From NCBI GenBank assembly GCA_002255955.1, contig NKIM01000021.1:1-64000 (forward strand): a DNA stretch of 64,000 bases. The letters are read 5' to 3'. Below the pieces are notes generated by a model. It was not told the DNA's origin, searched no databases, and was given only the letters and a program-made list of their open reading frames with translations. A program made the translations under genes and the position numbers. Numbering within the stretch: the first letter of the stretch is position 1; each line of letters starts with the position of its first letter. The DNA is from Burkholderiales bacterium PBB2 (GTDB lineage: Bacteria > Pseudomonadota > Gammaproteobacteria > Burkholderiales > Burkholderiaceae_C). Below, piece after piece: positions 6,941 to 42,857 of this stretch.

Positions 6941-9565
6941 ATGAATCAGCCCTTGTCGTTCCAGAAAAAAGTTCTGCCCCAACTGATCAGTGCCCTGATT
7001 GGCTCGCTGGCCTTGCAGGCTGCCCATGCAGCGGATGAGCCGGCCAAGGCCAATGAGCTGGAGAAGGTGGAGGTCCGCGGTATCCGCGCCACGCTGAACA
7101 AGAACCTCGTGGAGAAGCGCGAGAACTCCAGCATCGTCGATTCGATCTCGGCCGAGGATGTGGGCAAGTTCCCCGACAAGAACGTGGCCGATTCGCTGCA
7201 GCGCGTGCCCGGCATCTCGGTGGACCGCAGCTGGGGCGAGGGCAAGGCCATCTTCGTGCGCGGCACCGACAAGAACCTCAACATGACCCAGCTCAACGGC
7301 CAGGCCGTGGCGAGTTCGGAATGGTGGTTGAACGAAGCACAGACCCGCAGCTTCAACTACGACGTGTTGCCGTCTGAAATTGTCGGCAGCCTCGATGTCT
7401 ACAAGAGCCCATCGGCCGATCTGGATGAAGGCAGCATCGGCGGTCTGGTCATCGTCAAGACCCGCAAGCCTTTGGCCTTCAAGGACCCGTTGACCCTACA
7501 GGCTTCGGCCGAGGCCATCTACAGCCAGCTACCCGGCAAGACCGACCCGCAGGTTTCCGGCCTCTTGAACTGGAAGAGCGCCGACAAGACCTTCGGTGTG
7601 ATGCTGGCTCTGAGCAAGCAAACCCGCACCATGCGCCGCGATGGCCTGGAGATGTTCGACGACGGCAAGTACGACGTCCAGCCGGTCGACAAGAACAATG
7701 TGCCCACCGGCGCAGCCTCGACCAAGGCCTATGCCGCCTGGGGTGGTGGTTCAGCCATTTTCCGCCAGGACCGTGATCGCACCACCGGCAACCTGGCCCT
7801 GCAGTTCCAGCCCAACCAGCAGACCGACATCGTCCTGAATTACATGAATTCGGACATGAAGATGGACAACAGCAACCAGAACTACCTCTGGCAGGCCAGC
7901 GGTCAGGCGGTGGATGGTGTCATCAAGGTCCAGAACCCGAGCTTCATCACCACCTCGGACGGCACCAAGGCCCTGGTCGGCGGCTCGATCGGACCGACCA
8001 ATGTGTCCTTCGAGCCCATCTACCGCGACTCCTACATCAAGACCAAGGTGCTGGATCTGGATGGCAGCTACAAGTCCGATCGCTGGACGGTGCACGGCCA
8101 GGCTGGCACCACTTCTTCCGAAGGCGGCAGCCGCCATGACCGCCATTTCTGGATGGAAGGCAATGCCACCGCCACCATCGACATGGGCCTGGACAAGTAC
8201 GGCGTCAAGTACGACATGGACCCGCTGAGCTACAAGGGCCTGGTGCTCAAGCCCGGTGGCGGCACCAGCGACCGCGTGCGCCGCATGGAGAGCAAGGAGA
8301 ACTACCTGCAGGGCGATGTGACCCTGGACGTGGACAACGGTTTCATCAGCACCGTCAAGTTCGGTGCCAAGCACCGCGACAGCACGCAGCAGAACTTCCG
8401 CAGCCAGGGCACGGCCAATGGCGCCGCCGCCAGCTGGCAAAACCTGACCCTGGGCGATCTCTCCACCGGCCCTTCGCCGCTGCTGAGCCAGGCCGCTGCG
8501 TCGCCCGGCGCGCTGACCCAGTACCTGTGGTTTGACGATGCGCTGGTGGCCAGCAAGGCCATTCCCATGTTCGACAAGAACATGACGTACGCCGATGTGC
8601 TGAACGAGCACTACAAGATCCAGGAAAAGATCACGGCCGGCTATGTCAAGGCCGACTTCTCCACGGGCAAGTGGCGCGGTGATTTTGGTGTGCGCTTCGT
8701 CAAGACCCAGCAGACCTCGAACGGTTTTGCCCAGGCGGCCGACAAGACCTTCAAGCCGATCAGTCAGGACAACAACTACACCGACACCTTGCCCAGCCTG
8801 AACGTCGCGTACTCGCTGCAGAAGGACCTGATCCTGCGCGGCGCCGTCTCCAAGGCCATGGCACGCCAGACCTTCGACGTGCTCAACCCGGGCCTGACCC
8901 GCGACGGCACCGTGCTGACCAAGGCCAAGGCCGGCAACCCGCTGCTCAAGCCCATCCACTCCAACCAGGCCGAGCTGGGCGCCGAGTGGTACTTCGAGGA
9001 AGGCTCGCTGCTCTCGGGCACGGTCTTCATCAAGAAGCTGGATACCTTCAACTACACCGACACCAAGCAGGAAACCATCAACGGCGAGGTGCTCAATGTC
9101 TCGCGCCCCTTGAATGCCGACAATGGCGCCGATATCAAGGGCTTCGAGCTGCAGTGGCAACAGGCCTTCGGCCGCAGCGGCTTCGGCGCCACAGCCAACT
9201 ACACCTTCACCGATGCGAAGGCGGGTGCTGTGGCCGGCCAGCCGCGCCTGCAGGTGGTGGGCAATTCGCGTGACCAGTACAACGCCAGCGTGTACTACGA
9301 GCGCGACGGCATCAGCGCCCGCGTGTCCTACAACTACCGCTCCAAGTCCTACGGTGGCATGACCATGGGCGGCCAAGTGGTCAACAGCGCCTACGGTCAG
9401 TGGGATGCTTCGGCCAGCTGGGACATCACGCCCAAGGTGGCGCTGTTCGCCTCGGCCGTGAACATCGGCAATGAGCTGGTGCGCAGCAACACCACGGACG
9501 GTCTGCCGCTGGGCATCTACGAAAACGGCCGCCGCTTCGGCATCGGCCTGCGCGCCAAGTTCTGA
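6941..9565 (+). CDS. TonB-dependent outer-membrane receptor (Xanthomonas/Caulobacter type)
   Basis: This 874-residue protein starts at ATG 6941, preceded by CGGAGA, with a signal peptide ending near AAHAADE. The track start at 6749 adds an implausible leader. The plug domain follows (VEVRGIRATLNKNLVEKRE, DKNVADSLQRVPGISV, NMTQLNGQ). The rest is a beta-barrel ending in an aromatic residue (GIGLRAKF), as needed for outer-membrane insertion. The plug style fits the TIGR01782-like group that often imports carbohydrates or other organic substrates in xanthomonads and caulobacters. The FucP-type sugar transporter downstream supports a sugar role. The exact ligand cannot be read from the sequence. 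Confidence 0.9.
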   Translation: MNQPLSFQKKVLPQLISALIGSLALQAAHAADEPAKANELEKVEVRGIRATLNKNLVEKRENSSIVDSISAEDVGKFPDKNVADSLQRVPGISVDRSWGEGKAIFVRGTDKNLNMTQLNGQAVASSEWWLNEAQTRSFNYDVLPSEIVGSLDVYKSPSADLDEGSIGGLVIVKTRKPLAFKDPLTLQASAEAIYSQLPGKTDPQVSGLLNWKSADKTFGVMLALSKQTRTMRRDGLEMFDDGKYDVQPVDKNNVPTGAASTKAYAAWGGGSAIFRQDRDRTTGNLALQFQPNQQTDIVLNYMNSDMKMDNSNQNYLWQASGQAVDGVIKVQNPSFITTSDGTKALVGGSIGPTNVSFEPIYRDSYIKTKVLDLDGSYKSDRWTVHGQAGTTSSEGGSRHDRHFWMEGNATATIDMGLDKYGVKYDMDPLSYKGLVLKPGGGTSDRVRRMESKENYLQGDVTLDVDNGFISTVKFGAKHRDSTQQNFRSQGTANGAAASWQNLTLGDLSTGPSPLLSQAAASPGALTQYLWFDDALVASKAIPMFDKNMTYADVLNEHYKIQEKITAGYVKADFSTGKWRGDFGVRFVKTQQTSNGFAQAADKTFKPISQDNNYTDTLPSLNVAYSLQKDLILRGAVSKAMARQTFDVLNPGLTRDGTVLTKAKAGNPLLKPIHSNQAELGAEWYFEEGSLLSGTVFIKKLDTFNYTDTKQETINGEVLNVSRPLNADNGADIKGFELQWQQAFGRSGFGATANYTFTDAKAGAVAGQPRLQVVGNSRDQYNASVYYERDGISARVSYNYRSKSYGGMTMGGQVVNSAYGQWDASASWDITPKVALFASAVNIGNELVRSNTTDGLPLGIYENGRRFGIGLRAKF

Positions 9566-36977: not shown

Positions 36978-37583
36978 TCAGGGCGCCTGGTCTTCGGGCC
37001 AGCTTGGGTTCAGCAGGTCAAAGAGTTCATGGTCGCGCCAGGCGCCGGCGATGAAGAGGTAGCGACGGCTCAGGCCAATCGGGCTGAAGCCCAGGCGCTG
37101 CAGCACCGCGCGGCTGCGCCGGTTTTCGGGCCGCACGGCCGCCTGCAGCCGGTGCAGGCGCACGCGCGGGCCAAACAGCTCGGCGATGACGGCCTGCAAG
37201 GCCTCGTGCATCAGGCCCTGACCCTGGGCTTGGGCATCCAGGCTGTAACCCAGGCTGGCGTTCTGAAAGGGCCCGCGGCTCAGCTGCGAGATGCCGATCT
37301 GGCCGATCAACTCGGTCGGTGCCTCGCGGCGCGCGAACCAATAGCGCAGGGCGCTGCCGGCGGCAAACTCATCGGCGCCTTGCTGCAAGCGGGCCAGCAC
37401 CACCTCGGGCGTCAGAAAGTCTGGCGGCTGGGGTGGGTCCCAGGGGGCGAGGTGTTCGCGGTTGCGCAGCTGGAAATCGCGCACCGCCTCGCACAAGGCG
37501 GGGGAGGGCGCCCGCAAGAGCAGGCGGGGGCTGTGCAGCTCAGGGCTGGCGCCTGCGTTTGTCATCGTCATCGTTGTCGTCAT
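36978..37583 (-). CDS. GNAT acetyltransferase, RimJ/RimL-like
   Basis: This 201-residue protein matches the ribosomal-protein N-acetyltransferase branch (SPRLLLRAPSPALCEAVRDFQLRNREHLAPWDPPQP, then GQGLMHEALQAVIAELFG and LHRLQAAVRPENRRSRAVLQRLGF). It may acetylate ribosomal proteins or small molecules. ATG 37583 overlaps the stop of the hydrolase gene by four bases; downstream ATGs at 37571 and 37565 are alternatives. The track start at 37811 lies inside the preceding gene. Confidence 0.85.
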   Translation of the reverse strand: MTTTMTMTNAGASPELHSPRLLLRAPSPALCEAVRDFQLRNREHLAPWDPPQPPDFLTPEVVLARLQQGADEFAAGSALRYWFARREAPTELIGQIGISQLSRGPFQNASLGYSLDAQAQGQGLMHEALQAVIAELFGPRVRLHRLQAAVRPENRRSRAVLQRLGFSPIGLSRRYLFIAGAWRDHELFDLLNPSWPEDQAP

Positions 37584-38479
37584 TTCAGCTGTTCGCGCAA
37601 AAAGCCCAGCATGGCCTCGCGCGAAGCGGCCCAGGCTTCGGCATTGCCGCCGACATGCACGCCGGCGCCCGGGTTCACCCCGTTGGGCACCTCGCGGCGC
37701 AGGCGCACGGGCGCGGCTGCATCGAAGCCGTGGTACGCGCCGGTGTAGGTCTGGAATTGAACGGCGGCGCCACCGGCCTGACCGCGGCTGTGGGCGCCCA
37801 GGGCTTCGCAAGGCGCTGCGGCCGTCCAGTCGTCAGCGGCGCCCAGCAGCATCAGCAAGGGCGCCTGGGCGCGGTAGCCGCGCTTGAGTTCGGCTTCGCA
37901 GCCCGGGTAGAAGGCGACGGCGGCGCGCGGCTTGACGGGCGCGGCTTTCACTTCCTCATGGTCGGCGGCCGTGCTGGCCAGCACCGTGCTGCCGCCGTTG
38001 GACCAACCCAGCAAGGCGATGCGTGCCGGGTCCACCTCAGGCCGGGCCGCCAGCCATTGCAGGGCGCCCAGGGTGTCGCGGCGGCGTTCGCGCATGGTGA
38101 CTTGGCGGCTGCCGATGCGCTGGGTGCAGAGCTCGCGCTCGCCGCGCGGGCTCAGGGAGTCGAGCACCAGCACATGCCAGCCTTCCTGATTCAGCAGCGT
38201 GCGGTAGCTCTGCATGCGTTCGGACAACCGATCCGCCTGGCGGCCCAGGGCGCCGCCGCAGCCATGCAGCAGCAGCACGGCCGGCCGCGCCCGGGCTTCG
38301 GCGCTGCTGGCGGCCGGAAACCAATAGCCGCTCAAGGCCAGGGGCTGACCGTCCTGCTGCGGCAGGCTGGCGATTTCCACACGGTGCGCGGCGTCGCTGG
38401 CGACAGCGGCTGTCGCGGCGCACAGGGCCAGCAGCCCCTGGAGCAGCAGGGCAAGAAGAAGTCCGGGGCGGCTCGGCAT
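37580..38479 (-). CDS. Secreted dienelactone-hydrolase-like alpha/beta hydrolase
   Basis: This 299-residue protein has a signal peptide (GLLLALLLQGLLALCAATAAVA), then LLLHGCGGALGRQ, a GWSNGG nucleophile region and a YHGFD catalytic His region, all typical of the dienelactone hydrolase family. The start is ATG 38479; the track's TTG at 38506 is less likely. It is coupled to the GNAT gene and divergent from the bd-oxidase regulator. A poly-G10 tract lies 33 bp upstream of the start. Confidence 0.82.
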   Translation of the reverse strand: MPSRPGLLLALLLQGLLALCAATAAVASDAAHRVEIASLPQQDGQPLALSGYWFPAASSAEARARPAVLLLHGCGGALGRQADRLSERMQSYRTLLNQEGWHVLVLDSLSPRGERELCTQRIGSRQVTMRERRRDTLGALQWLAARPEVDPARIALLGWSNGGSTVLASTAADHEEVKAAPVKPRAAVAFYPGCEAELKRGYRAQAPLLMLLGAADDWTAAAPCEALGAHSRGQAGGAAVQFQTYTGAYHGFDAAAPVRLRREVPNGVNPGAGVHVGGNAEAWAASREAMLGFLREQLK

Positions 38480-38511
38480 GGGGATCAGGTGGGTGGAGGC
38501 GGTCAAGGAGC

Positions 38512-38521
38512 GGGGGGGGGG
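38512..38521 (+). repeat. Poly-G tract (10 G)
   Basis: Ten consecutive G lie in the divergent region between the hydrolase (33 bp upstream of its start) and the GbsR/MarR gene. It matches the one at 35286-35295 in length, orientation and distance to a minus-strand start. Confidence 0.85.
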
Positions 38522-38608
38522 CGATGAGCCTGCCCAGCTTTCCTCGCATTATTGGCGCCCCTCATGACGCAGCAACCTCGCTGCTCGCACGGTCAAGGAT
38601 CTGTGGAC

Positions 38609-38644
38609 TTGCTGAATTTTCAGGAATTCTTGAAAATTCAGCAA
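38609..38644. promoter_or_regulatory. 36-bp palindromic operator before the oxidase regulator
   Basis: The arms TTGCTGAATTTTCA (38609-38622) and TGAAAATTCAGCAA (38631-38644) are perfectly inverted over 14 bp with an 8-bp spacer. It lies 73 bp before the regulator start I propose (38717). This is an ideal dimeric repressor site, and the GbsR/MarR protein itself is the obvious ligand. Confidence 0.8.
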
Positions 38645-38716
38645 AATCTTGAAGCAGATCAAATTCCTCCACCCTCAAAAGACGCCGGCTTTGCGCTGGC
38701 GCAAGGACACGCCGCC

Positions 38717-39298
38717 ATGCAAGCCATGAGTCCCCTGGTTCGTAGTTTTGTGGCCCATTTCGGGGAAATGGGCAGCCGTTGGGGCATCAACCGCACCGTC
38801 GGGCAGATTTATGCCCTGATTTTTGTCTCGCCCCAAGCCATCAATGCCGATGAGATCGCCGAGAACCTGGAGTTCAGCCGCTCCAATGTCTCCATGGGCC
38901 TGAAAGAGCTGCAGGCCTGGCGCCTGGTGCGCCTGCGCCACCTGCCGGGCGACCGGCGCGAGTATTTCGAGGCGCCGTCAGATGCCTGGGAAATCTTCCG
39001 CACCCTGGCCGAAGAGCGCCGCCGCCGCGAAATCGAACCGACCTTGTCCATGCTGCGCAATGCCTTGCTGGAGGCGCCAACCTGCGAAGAGGACCGTGTG
39101 GCGCAGGAACGCATGCGCGGCATGCACGACCTGATCGAACTGATGACGACCTGGTTCGACGATGTGCAGAAGATGGATTCGCAGACCCTGGGCCAGCTGA
39201 TGAAGATGGGCTCCAAGGTGCAGAAGATGCTGGAGCTGCCGGGCCGCATCGGCCGCGCCGTCAGCGGTGTTGCGGCTAAGCCGGCTTCGGAGGCTTGA
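38717..39298 (+). CDS. GbsR/MarR-family regulator of the bd oxidase genes
   Basis: This 193-residue winged-helix regulator (FVAHFGEMGSRWGINRTVGQIYALIF, then ADEIAENLEFSRSNVSMGLKELQAWRLVR) belongs to the GbsR branch of the MarR superfamily. I moved the start from the track's TTG at 38552 to ATG 38717, because AAGGA lies 9 bp before it and the earlier start would place the palindromic operator inside the gene. Only 4 bp separate its stop from cydA, so it is co-transcribed with the oxidase and probably controls it. The effector is unknown. Confidence 0.85.
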   Translation: MQAMSPLVRSFVAHFGEMGSRWGINRTVGQIYALIFVSPQAINADEIAENLEFSRSNVSMGLKELQAWRLVRLRHLPGDRREYFEAPSDAWEIFRTLAEERRRREIEPTLSMLRNALLEAPTCEEDRVAQERMRGMHDLIELMTTWFDDVQKMDSQTLGQLMKMGSKVQKMLELPGRIGRAVSGVAAKPASEA

Positions 39299-39302
39299 TG
39301 CC

Positions 39303-40676
39303 ATGGACGCCCTTCATGCCCTCGACCCCGTGGTGCTGGCCCGCATGCAGTTCGCCGCCAACATCACCTTCCACATTCTCTTTCCCACCATCAACATCGC
39401 CCTGGCCTGGGTGCTGCTGTTCTTCCGCTGGCGCTGGCTGAGTACCCAACAGGAGGCCTGGCTCCATGCCTACCGTTTCTGGACCAAGGTGTTTGCGCTG
39501 AGCTTTGCGCTGGGCGTGGTCAGCGGCATCACCATGAGCTTCCAGTTCGGCACCAACTGGCCCGGCTTCATGGCGCGGGCCGGCAATATCGCCGGGCCGC
39601 TGCTCGGCTACGAGGTGCTGACGGCCTTCTTCCTGGAGGCGAGTTTCCTCGGCGTGATGCTGTTCGGCCATGGCCGGGTCAGCGAGCGGGTGCATCTGGC
39701 CGCGACCTTTCTGGTCGCCTTTGGCACCAGCTTGAGCGCCTTCTGGATCTTGAGCCTGAACTCCTGGATGCAGACCCCCCAGGGCTTCGAGATCATCAAC
39801 GGCGAGTTCCATGTGCTGAGCTGGGCCGAGGTGATCTTAAACCCCAGTTTCCCCTACCGCCTGGCCCACAAGCTGCTGGCCTCGGGCCTGACCGTGGCCT
39901 TTCTGCTGGCCGGTTTGAGCGCATGGCAGCTGCTCAAGCGCAAGAGCCAGCCCAGCACCGCCCGCGTGCTGCGGGTGGGGCTGACGCTGGGCGCGGTGCT
40001 GATCCCGCTGCAGATCCTGGTGGGCGATATGCACGGGCTCAACACGCTCAAGCACCAGCCGGCCAAGGTGGCGGCGATGGAAGGCGTCTGGCAGACCGAG
40101 CGTGGCGCGCCCTTGCTGCTCTTCGCCTGGCCAAACGAGAAGACGCGCAGCAATGACTTTGCGCTGGGCATCCCGAAGCTGGCCAGCCTGATCCTGACTC
40201 ATGAAGCCGAGGGCGAGATCCGCGGGCTGGACGAGTTCAAGGGCGCGCATCCGCCGGTGGCGCCGCTGTTCTTCGGCTTCCGCATCATGGTTGGCACAGG
40301 CGTCTTGATGCTGGCCTTCAGCTGGGCGGGCCTGTGGCTGTACCGCCGCCGCGCCTGGGTGGCCGAGCAGCTGCCGCGGCCGCTGCTCTGGGGTCTGAGT
40401 GGCATGGCGTTCTCGGGTTGGCTGGCCACCGTGTCCGGCTGGTATGTCACCGAGATCGGCCGCCAGCCCTTCATCGTCTACGGCCTCTTGCGCACCAGCG
40501 AGGTGGCCTCGACCACGCCGGCGCCCTATATCGCCCTGACCCTGGCCGGCTATGTGACGCTGTACCTGTTCCTGATCGTGGCTTACGTCGGCGTACTCAA
40601 GTACATGGCCGAGAAGCCGCTGGAGCATGGCCCGAGTACGCCCTCGCGCCTGACCCAGAGCCGCACTTTTGCTTGA
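39303..40676 (+). CDS. cydA: Cytochrome bd-type quinol oxidase subunit I (cyanide-insensitive type)
   Basis: This 457-residue membrane protein oxidises quinol and reduces oxygen to water. The N-terminal haem-ligand helix (FAANITFHILFPTINIALAW), the LGYEVLTAFFLEASFLGVMLFG helix and the conserved GWYVTEIGRQPF motif are clear. The Q-loop after GDMHGLNTLKHQPAKVAAMEG is short, as in the CIO/CioA branch. It starts at ATG 39303, 4 bp after the regulator. The track start at 39267 overlaps the regulator needlessly. Confidence 0.93.
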   Translation: MDALHALDPVVLARMQFAANITFHILFPTINIALAWVLLFFRWRWLSTQQEAWLHAYRFWTKVFALSFALGVVSGITMSFQFGTNWPGFMARAGNIAGPLLGYEVLTAFFLEASFLGVMLFGHGRVSERVHLAATFLVAFGTSLSAFWILSLNSWMQTPQGFEIINGEFHVLSWAEVILNPSFPYRLAHKLLASGLTVAFLLAGLSAWQLLKRKSQPSTARVLRVGLTLGAVLIPLQILVGDMHGLNTLKHQPAKVAAMEGVWQTERGAPLLLFAWPNEKTRSNDFALGIPKLASLILTHEAEGEIRGLDEFKGAHPPVAPLFFGFRIMVGTGVLMLAFSWAGLWLYRRRAWVAEQLPRPLLWGLSGMAFSGWLATVSGWYVTEIGRQPFIVYGLLRTSEVASTTPAPYIALTLAGYVTLYLFLIVAYVGVLKYMAEKPLEHGPSTPSRLTQSRTFA

Positions 40677-40691
40677 TAGGAGGGCGTGACC

Positions 40692-41717
40692 ATGAATGCC
40701 AGTTTTTTGACGCCGGACCTCAGCTCAGCCGCAGGCTGGATGCCTTTGGTCTTTCTCGGCCTGATGGGCCTGTCCCTCTTGATTTACGTGGTGCTGGATG
40801 GCTATGACCTGGGCGTCGGCCTGCTGATGATCGGCGCCAGCGATGCCCACAAGGACCAGATGGTGGCCTCGATCGGCCCCTTTTGGGATGCCAATGAAAC
40901 CTGGCTGGTGCTGGGCGTGGGCATCTTGCTGGTGGCATTCCCCAAAGCCCATGGCCTGATCCTGCAGGCGCTCTATTTGCCGGTGGCGCTGATGCTGCTG
41001 GGCCTGATGCTGCGCGGCGTGGCCTTTGACTTCCGCGTCAAGGCGCCGGCCGACTGGAAGCCGTTTTGGAACGGCACCTTCATTTTCGGCTCGGCCCTGG
41101 CGGCCCTGTCCCAGGGCTGGATGCTGGCGCGTTACATCACCGGCTTTGCCGAGGGCCCGGGCTACACCGCCTTTGCCCTGCTGATTGCCCTGGCCCTGGC
41201 GGCCGCCTACGCCATGCTGGGCGCCGGCTGGTTGATCATGAAGATGGATGGCGCCGTGCAGGCCCTGGCCGTGCAGCGGGCCAAGCTGGCCTGGCCGGCC
41301 GTGGTCTTGGGTCTGGCGGGCGTGTCGCTGATGACGCCCTGGGTCAGTGCCACGGTCAGCGAGCGCTGGTTCCGCATGCCCGAGTTGATCGCCCTGCTGC
41401 CCATCCCGCTGATGACGGCGCTGAGCCTGCTGGGCTTGCGCTCCTTGCTGAACTCGCATCGGGTGCTTGGCAAGCTGTGCTGGCTGCCGTTTGCCCTGAT
41501 GGTGGCCGTGATGTTGTTGGGCGCGCTGGGCCTGGCCTACAGCCTCTATCCCTATGTGCTGATCGACCGCCTGACAGTTTGGCAAGCCGCGGCCGCACCC
41601 AAGTCCTTGACCGTCATCCTCTGGGGGGTCTTGGTCACTTTGCCGGCGATTCTGGTCTACACATGGTTTGCTTACCGGGTATTTTGGGGAAAGTCGAGTG
41701 AGCTTCGGTATGCTTGA
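40692..41717 (+). CDS. cydB: Cytochrome bd-type quinol oxidase subunit II
   Basis: This 341-residue membrane subunit (MGLSLLIYVVLDGYDLGVGLLMIG, then GPFWDANETWLVLGVG and RGVAFDFRVK) stabilises the haem groups of the bd oxidase. ATG 40692 follows AGGAGG at 40679-40684. It is coupled to cydA with a 15-bp gap. I see no cydX-like small subunit in the following 170 bp. Confidence 0.93.
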   Translation: MNASFLTPDLSSAAGWMPLVFLGLMGLSLLIYVVLDGYDLGVGLLMIGASDAHKDQMVASIGPFWDANETWLVLGVGILLVAFPKAHGLILQALYLPVALMLLGLMLRGVAFDFRVKAPADWKPFWNGTFIFGSALAALSQGWMLARYITGFAEGPGYTAFALLIALALAAAYAMLGAGWLIMKMDGAVQALAVQRAKLAWPAVVLGLAGVSLMTPWVSATVSERWFRMPELIALLPIPLMTALSLLGLRSLLNSHRVLGKLCWLPFALMVAVMLLGALGLAYSLYPYVLIDRLTVWQAAAAPKSLTVILWGVLVTLPAILVYTWFAYRVFWGKSSELRYA

Positions 41718-41889
41718 TGCCGATCAACCCGGGTTTCACCGGGGGTGGAACGAAATTCAGGCGGCTGCACCGCTGCCTCATCGCCTAAAACTGCAGTTCG
41801 TCGCTTTTTGCTGGAGCTGACCCTGCGCCTTGGTGATACTTCGCTCCATTGATGACAGATCGCCCAAAGCAGGCGGGGGAGTATTGGAA

Positions 41890-42186
41890 ATGCAGCAGCT
41901 TGAAAAGACACGGGCCCAGCACAGCGTCAAGCCCTTCTCTCGTGCCTGGGCCGCGCCCCTGGCCTTGAGCGCCGCTTTTCTGGGGCTAGTGTTTCCGCCC
42001 GCGCCGGCTCAGGCCAGTGAGGTCGTCAAGCTGGCGCGTCTGGTGGTCACCGGCAAGCGCCTGAGCTCGGCCCCGGTCGTTCGCGCCCCGGCCAAGCAAC
42101 TGCCCAAGGTGGTGGTGGAAGGCCAGGCCACGCCGGAAGAGATGCGCATGGCCGATCTGCGCCGCGCTCAGTTCCGACCGATTTGA
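41890..42186 (+). CDS. Small exported protein of unknown function
   Basis: This 98-residue protein has a signal peptide (APLALSAAFLGLVFPPAPAQASE) and a short basic mature part containing LARLVVTGKRLS and KVVVEGQATPEEM. The VVTGK piece resembles the start of TonB plug domains, but the protein is far too short to be a receptor. The start ATG 41890 follows GGGGGAGT. It ends before a strong terminator, which supports its being expressed. No family is recognised. Confidence 0.65.
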   Translation: MQQLEKTRAQHSVKPFSRAWAAPLALSAAFLGLVFPPAPAQASEVVKLARLVVTGKRLSSAPVVRAPAKQLPKVVVEGQATPEEMRMADLRRAQFRPI

Positions 42187-42222: not shown

Positions 42223-42259
42223 AAGCAAAAGGCCGCGTTCGCGGCCTTTTGCTTTTTTG
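42223..42259 (+). terminator. Strong rho-independent terminator
   Basis: The stem AGCAAAAGGCCGC/GCGGCCTTTTGCT (13 bp) has a GTTC loop and is followed by a T run. It closes the small exported-protein gene on the plus strand. Confidence 0.95.
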
Positions 42260-42275: not shown

Positions 42276-42800
42276 TCAGTTCCAGCGCGGCGGATTGGGG
42301 TGCAGGCGAGCCATGGCCAGGGTGTCGACATAGACCCCCTTGCGCAGGGCGTAGGCCCGCATCAGGCCTTCACGCTGGAAGCCGAAACTTTCGTAGAGCC
42401 GAATTGCCCGGGCGTTGTCGGCATAGACCGTCAGCTCGGTGCGCAAGACCTGACCCCAGTTGTCGGCATAGTCCATCAAGGCAGCCATCAGGGCTCGGCC
42501 GATGCCTCGGCCCTGCGCTTCGGCGGCGACTGAGATGCCCAGGCTCATGGCGTGTCGCCGGCGCAGTGAGGCGCCCGCCGGATGCAGGCCGGCGCTGCCG
42601 ACCACCTGGCCCTGAACCTCGGCCACCAGCGACAAGTCCGGCTTGCCCGGCACCGCGTTGTCCTGCAGGCGGGCGCGCCAGAGCTCCTCGCTGGGGTAGG
42701 GCAGTTGCAGCAGGCCGGAGAAGACTTCAGGGTGGGACATCAGCTGGGCCATGGCGGCGGCGTCTGAAACCTGGCTGCGTCGGATCGTGATCTTCTCCAT
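42276..42800 (-). CDS. GNAT acetyltransferase, AaaT/YhhY-like
   Basis: This 174-residue protein closely follows the layout of E. coli YhhY/AaaT, an amino-acid N-acyltransferase: HPEVFSGLLQLPYPSEELWRARL, the RGIGRALMAALMDYADNW acetyl-CoA segment, LTVYADNARAIRLYESFGF and the final YVDTLAMAR. ATG 42800 is preceded by AAGGAG. It stands alone on the minus strand between two terminators. The substrate is inferred from the family. Confidence 0.85.
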   Translation of the reverse strand: MEKITIRRSQVSDAAAMAQLMSHPEVFSGLLQLPYPSEELWRARLQDNAVPGKPDLSLVAEVQGQVVGSAGLHPAGASLRRRHAMSLGISVAAEAQGRGIGRALMAALMDYADNWGQVLRTELTVYADNARAIRLYESFGFQREGLMRAYALRKGVYVDTLAMARLHPNPPRWN

Positions 42801-42857
42801 CGGGGGCTCCTTGGGTTGGAAAGCAAGCGCTTGTTGAAATGCGCGGGGCAAGAAAAG

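Follow-up and report, generated by a model that had tools for sequence, protein, structure and literature searches.

A 36-bp palindrome lies ahead of a GbsR-type regulator gene and two cytochrome bd-type oxidase genes in the 64,000-nucleotide stretch of DNA that we analyzed as a whole (the window). Comparison of this region with its relatives leaves us highly confident that the palindrome serves as operator for a GbsR-type repressor, an orthologue of CydE/CioR, and that this protein is translated from the ATG at 38717. The features on which the argument depends are these:

38552..38716, + strand: very probably spurious N-terminal extension of the longest ORF, with a TTG start; non-coding in the best-supported reading
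38609..38644, no strand assigned: 36-bp palindrome, predicted operator, from palindrome analysis, relatives and the published CydE footprint (PMC6096048)
38642..38647, + strand: putative -10 element CAAAAT, weak (4/6), proposed because relatives carry TAnAnT at the same position
38649..38662, no strand assigned: FNR/Anr-like box TTGAAGCAGATCAA, which agrees with the consensus at 9 of 10 positions and has its centre at the predicted transcription start
38703..38707, + strand: Shine-Dalgarno-like AAGGA, 9 nt before ATG 38717
38717..39298, + strand: cydE/cioR, GbsR-type MarR-family regulator, 193 aa from the ATG, from domain and structure matches
39303..40676, + strand: cydA (cioA-like), cytochrome bd-type oxidase subunit I with a short Q-loop (PF01654, 529 bits)
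40692..41717, + strand: cydB (cioB-like), cytochrome bd-type oxidase subunit II (PF02322, 263 bits)

The palindrome reads TTGCTGAATTTTCAGGAA followed directly by TTCTTGAAAATTCAGCAA, two 18-bp arms with no spacer and 94% complementarity, in which the 14 outer pairs are perfect, one mismatch follows, and the three inner pairs are again perfect. Its core, TTTCAGGAATTCTTGAAA, spans 38618-38635 and is flanked by the outer half-sites CTGAA and TTCAG. The element named in the original prediction is real: its score of 15.5 exceeds those of all 2,000 dinucleotide shuffles of the intergenic sequence 38507-38716 (mean 4.6, standard deviation 1.15, maximum 11.0), and it ranks first among the palindromes of the 64-kb window. 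The second-strongest window palindrome, at 42238 (score 13.5), sits between ORFs 41830-42186 and 42276-42851. The intergenic region also holds ten consecutive G residues at 38512-38521. A search for the motif elsewhere, as the original prediction had proposed, found a single copy of the palindrome sequence at up to three mismatches in the 5.48-Mb genome and no close-match operator other than the cydEAB site. The motif recurs upstream of the regulator in homologous loci.

This recurrence is complete among the loci that we compared, which comprise the best 80 of 238 relatives from a genome scan plus the window and are biased toward close kin. An operator lies upstream of the regulator in 81 of these 81 loci, scoring 19-33 against a position weight matrix trained on the very sites it scores, with its centre 20-111 nt ahead of the regulator start; at 552,243 other positions of the same locus sequences, no site scores 19 or more. 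The operator consensus upstream of the regulator is TTTCAGTAATTACTGAAA, and the conserved pattern extends beyond the core to TTnCTGAAnTTTCAGTAATTACTGAAAnTTCA(g), which amounts to four CTGAA/TTCAG half-sites. cydA is found downstream of the regulator in 75 of the 80 homologous loci (best 80 of 238 relatives). Across genomes of the class, the operator is retained by regulators of 44-66% identity that are linked to cydA, with a weaker variant in one case (L120). In a genus-mate (G145), neither the regulator nor the operator is present. More distant GbsR-type regulators without cydA (L127, L128, L130-L142; 40-47% identity) have an altered form of the palindrome, TTTCTGTAATWACAGAAA; the gene that follows them is often DUF393-like or SDR-like, as judged by eye from translations. 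Together with the resemblance of the core to the footprinted CydE site given in the available text of PMC6096048, the full set of 81 loci strongly supports the earlier proposal that the palindrome is an operator.

Assignment of the regulator to its family rests on a Pfam MarR_2 match of 37 bits (cutoff 27) and on a match to PDB entry 1ku9 (E=2e-14), which is the winged-helix protein MJ223, the modelling template for GbsR. An alternative identity as a CudC/GbsR choline regulator (NCBIfam NF047500) was rejected, because the score of 52.8 bits falls under the equivalog cut-off of 218 bits.

Where this protein begins decides whether the palindrome is coding. In the ORF reading, the palindrome does fall inside the longest frame, which opens at TTG 38552, and the original prediction moved the start to ATG 38717. 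Several observations strongly support that move. First, the ATG is preceded at 9 nt by AAGGA, a sequence (AAGGA or AAGGAG) also seen before the ATG in several Paucibacter relatives, and among the best 80 of 238 relatives most loci have an ATG at the aligned position. Second, the closest relative among the loci listed (L002, Paucibacter DJ2R-2), whose regulator shares 99% amino acid identity, carries an in-frame TAA inside the operator plus a 1-nt deletion further upstream, changes that make the 55-residue extension impossible in that relative. Third, in 58 of the 81 loci (best 80 of 238 relatives and the window) the frame is interrupted by a stop codon inside the operator or downstream of it, whereas the remaining 23 run from the 5' edge of the operator to the ATG without one.

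The contrary view is that translation starts at TTG 38552, or at a second in-frame TTG at 38630 with a possible weak AGGA ahead of it, and that the palindrome is either an operator lying within the coding sequence or incidental. The frame is indeed open in the window and in L003, both of which belong to those 23 loci. We nonetheless regard this view as improbable, given the stops in L002 and most other loci, the aligned and well-spaced ATG, and the position of both TTG codons upstream of the predicted transcription start. The consensus operator contains stops in two of three frames, TAA in one and TGA in another, and the window variant GGAATTC (GTAA changed to GGAA) has lost the stop of the regulator frame; this loss accounts for the excess length of the ORF. 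In L002, TTG 38552 is an artefactual start, and very probably it is one in the window too, where the gene is very probably annotated about 55 codons too long and ATG 38717 is the best start. A misplaced start codon is thereby corrected, and its misplacement is traced to the loss of the usual in-frame stop from the operator.

With the ATG as the start, the palindrome falls in a predicted promoter region. A scan found no consensus sigma-70 promoter, and the -10 element was therefore deduced from the alignment: TANANT begins 15-17 nt past the operator centre in 32 of the 81 loci (best 80 of 238 relatives and the window) and seldom occurs in the rest of the region scanned in those loci. Its recurrence just past the operator suggests that the operator covers the -35 and spacer region and abuts the -10, as expected for a repressor site. 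In the proposed mechanism, a regulator dimer would bind the TTTCAGGAATTCTTGAAA core, which would lie over the -35 region and the spacer and immediately ahead of the -10. The bound protein would block RNA polymerase and so repress the whole cydE-cydA-cydB operon, the regulator's own gene included, until repression is relieved by a stress or respiratory signal. Such autoregulation is suggested by the position of the site and by analogy with two published orthologous systems. Two observations run the other way: the window's own -10, CAAAAT, is weak, which tells against the operator model, and one regulator gene in a related genome (L149) has no operator while two others (L151 and L152) have only a weak one, which argues against universal autoregulation.

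An FNR/Anr-like box, a feature absent from the original prediction, may add a second layer of control. A near match to the TTGATNNNNATCAA consensus lies close to the promoter, and the genome encodes an FNR-type protein (L144) with an N-terminal CxxC...C cysteine cluster and an E-x-x-SR recognition helix. Boxes scoring at least 9/10 occur in 19 of the 81 loci (again the best 80 of 238 relatives and the window) versus 0.4 expected in shuffles; these 19 loci share ancestry and are not independent, and they span several genera. Most of the boxes lie 28-30 nt from the operator centre, that is, on the predicted transcript start, where a bound FNR protein would probably repress the operon under strict anoxia. 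Activation by FNR from -41.5 was considered and is disfavoured, because in several relatives 19-31 nt separate the box from the ATG that follows it, and the implied transcript start would there fall inside coding sequence.

The operator is not confined to regulator genes. At no more than one mismatch it occurs in 22 of 151 genomes of the family, a count that leaves out the window's own site, which is beyond that limit. The best site is beside the regulator gene in 18 of the 22 genomes and ahead of a cydD-like gene in four (loci L089, L090, L106, L107 and L149, L150, L151, L152). Each of the four cydD clusters contains a cydA that belongs to a different subtype and shares about 32-38% identity with the window's. 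In three of them (L149, L151, L152) the regulator gene stands at the far end in the opposite, convergent orientation; in the fourth genome (G023) it is on another contig, and this genome has one more operator site, 74 nt ahead of hemA (L153:7718-7735, 17/18 match; hemA is ORF 7810-9090, named from its translation). A divergent dienelactone-hydrolase-like gene (37580-38506, - strand) shares the intergenic region with the operator in the window; it was rejected as a conserved co-regulated target because the linkage is seen in only a few close relatives.

Sites away from the regulator gene, ahead of cydD or hemA, would also be expected if the palindrome belonged to a different protein, such as a global respiratory regulator, and not to the adjacent GbsR-type protein. 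There is little to recommend this idea, because the motif matches the CydE footprint described in the available text of PMC6096048, the site tracks the regulator family across the 81 loci (best 80 of 238 relatives and the window), the genomes with cydD or hemA sites encode the regulator too, and the distant subfamilies without cydA carry a correspondingly altered palindrome. Least credible, to the point of being negligible, is an RNA hairpin in the leader, a terminator or riboswitch, whose stem could form if the palindrome were transcribed, since we found no Rfam match and no terminator-like site, the arms are A+T-rich and precede the proposed -10, and the half-site sequences are themselves conserved, as expected for protein binding.

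The presence of the same operator at cydDC-containing oxidase operons in some related genomes, and once at hemA, suggests a wider respiratory regulon. Whether CydE/CioR heads a small Burkholderiales regulon of two bd-type oxidases and heme supply, paired with FNR at cydEAB, is a question on which we are evenly divided. Should it prove true, one operator would serve cydEAB, the cydDC-cydA operons of structurally different oxidases, and hemA, and the fixed spacing between operator and FNR/Anr box at cydEAB would allow stress and oxygen signals to be integrated at one promoter.

The original prediction also described the oxidase as cyanide-insensitive. The genes run in the order regulator-cydA-cydB, with cydA starting 4 nt past the regulator stop. 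In subunit I the alignment to the Geobacillus enzyme (5doq) runs from end to end, and the long insertion that the E. coli enzymes carry in the Q-loop is missing; a short Q-loop is thus present, but this feature is not specific to CIO. Our searches of the window's genome found no second cydA and no close homologue of cydDC, the best cydD match having 27% identity. A short-Q-loop bd-type oxidase, together with the failure to find cydDC in the genome, fits a CIO and is suggestive without amounting to proof.

Autorepression of cydE/cioR-cydAB operons is already published, for CydE in 2018 (PMC6096048) and for CioR in 2025 (PMC11837568). In Alishewanella sp. WH16-1, CydE is a GbsR-type protein that represses its own cydAB operon, and as in the window its gene lies within a cydEAB operon. 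By eye, the window core matches the DNase-footprinted CydE site 1, TATTTCAGAAATTTCTGAAAGTTCA, at 15 of 18 positions. The Alishewanella operon differs in having a second, dissimilar footprinted site, GGGATGCGCATATGCAAAT, and in being derepressed by sulfate, and the available text reports no FNR box (PMC6096048). CioR of Chromobacterium violaceum is likewise a GbsR-type autorepressor, which binds and represses the promoter of its own cioRAB operon; CioAB is there regarded as cyanide-insensitive, quorum sensing (CviR) provides an input, and the operator sequence is not defined in the available text (PMC11837568). The Bacillus regulators GbsR, OpuAR, YvaV and OpcR share the family and its MJ223-like winged helix, but they control compatible-solute genes and sense choline or glycine betaine (PMC6207618). 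Within the open-access literature, we found the operator motif in the Alishewanella paper alone (PMC6096048), and the available texts on CydE/CioR mention neither a family-wide consensus nor a paired FNR box nor cydDC and hemA sites. From one footprinted CydE site, the present comparison arrives at a consensus for the whole family, TTTCAGTAATTACTGAAA, with which CydE/CioR targets can be sought, and it adds two testable features, namely an FNR/Anr box of conserved position and operator copies ahead of cydDC and hemA.
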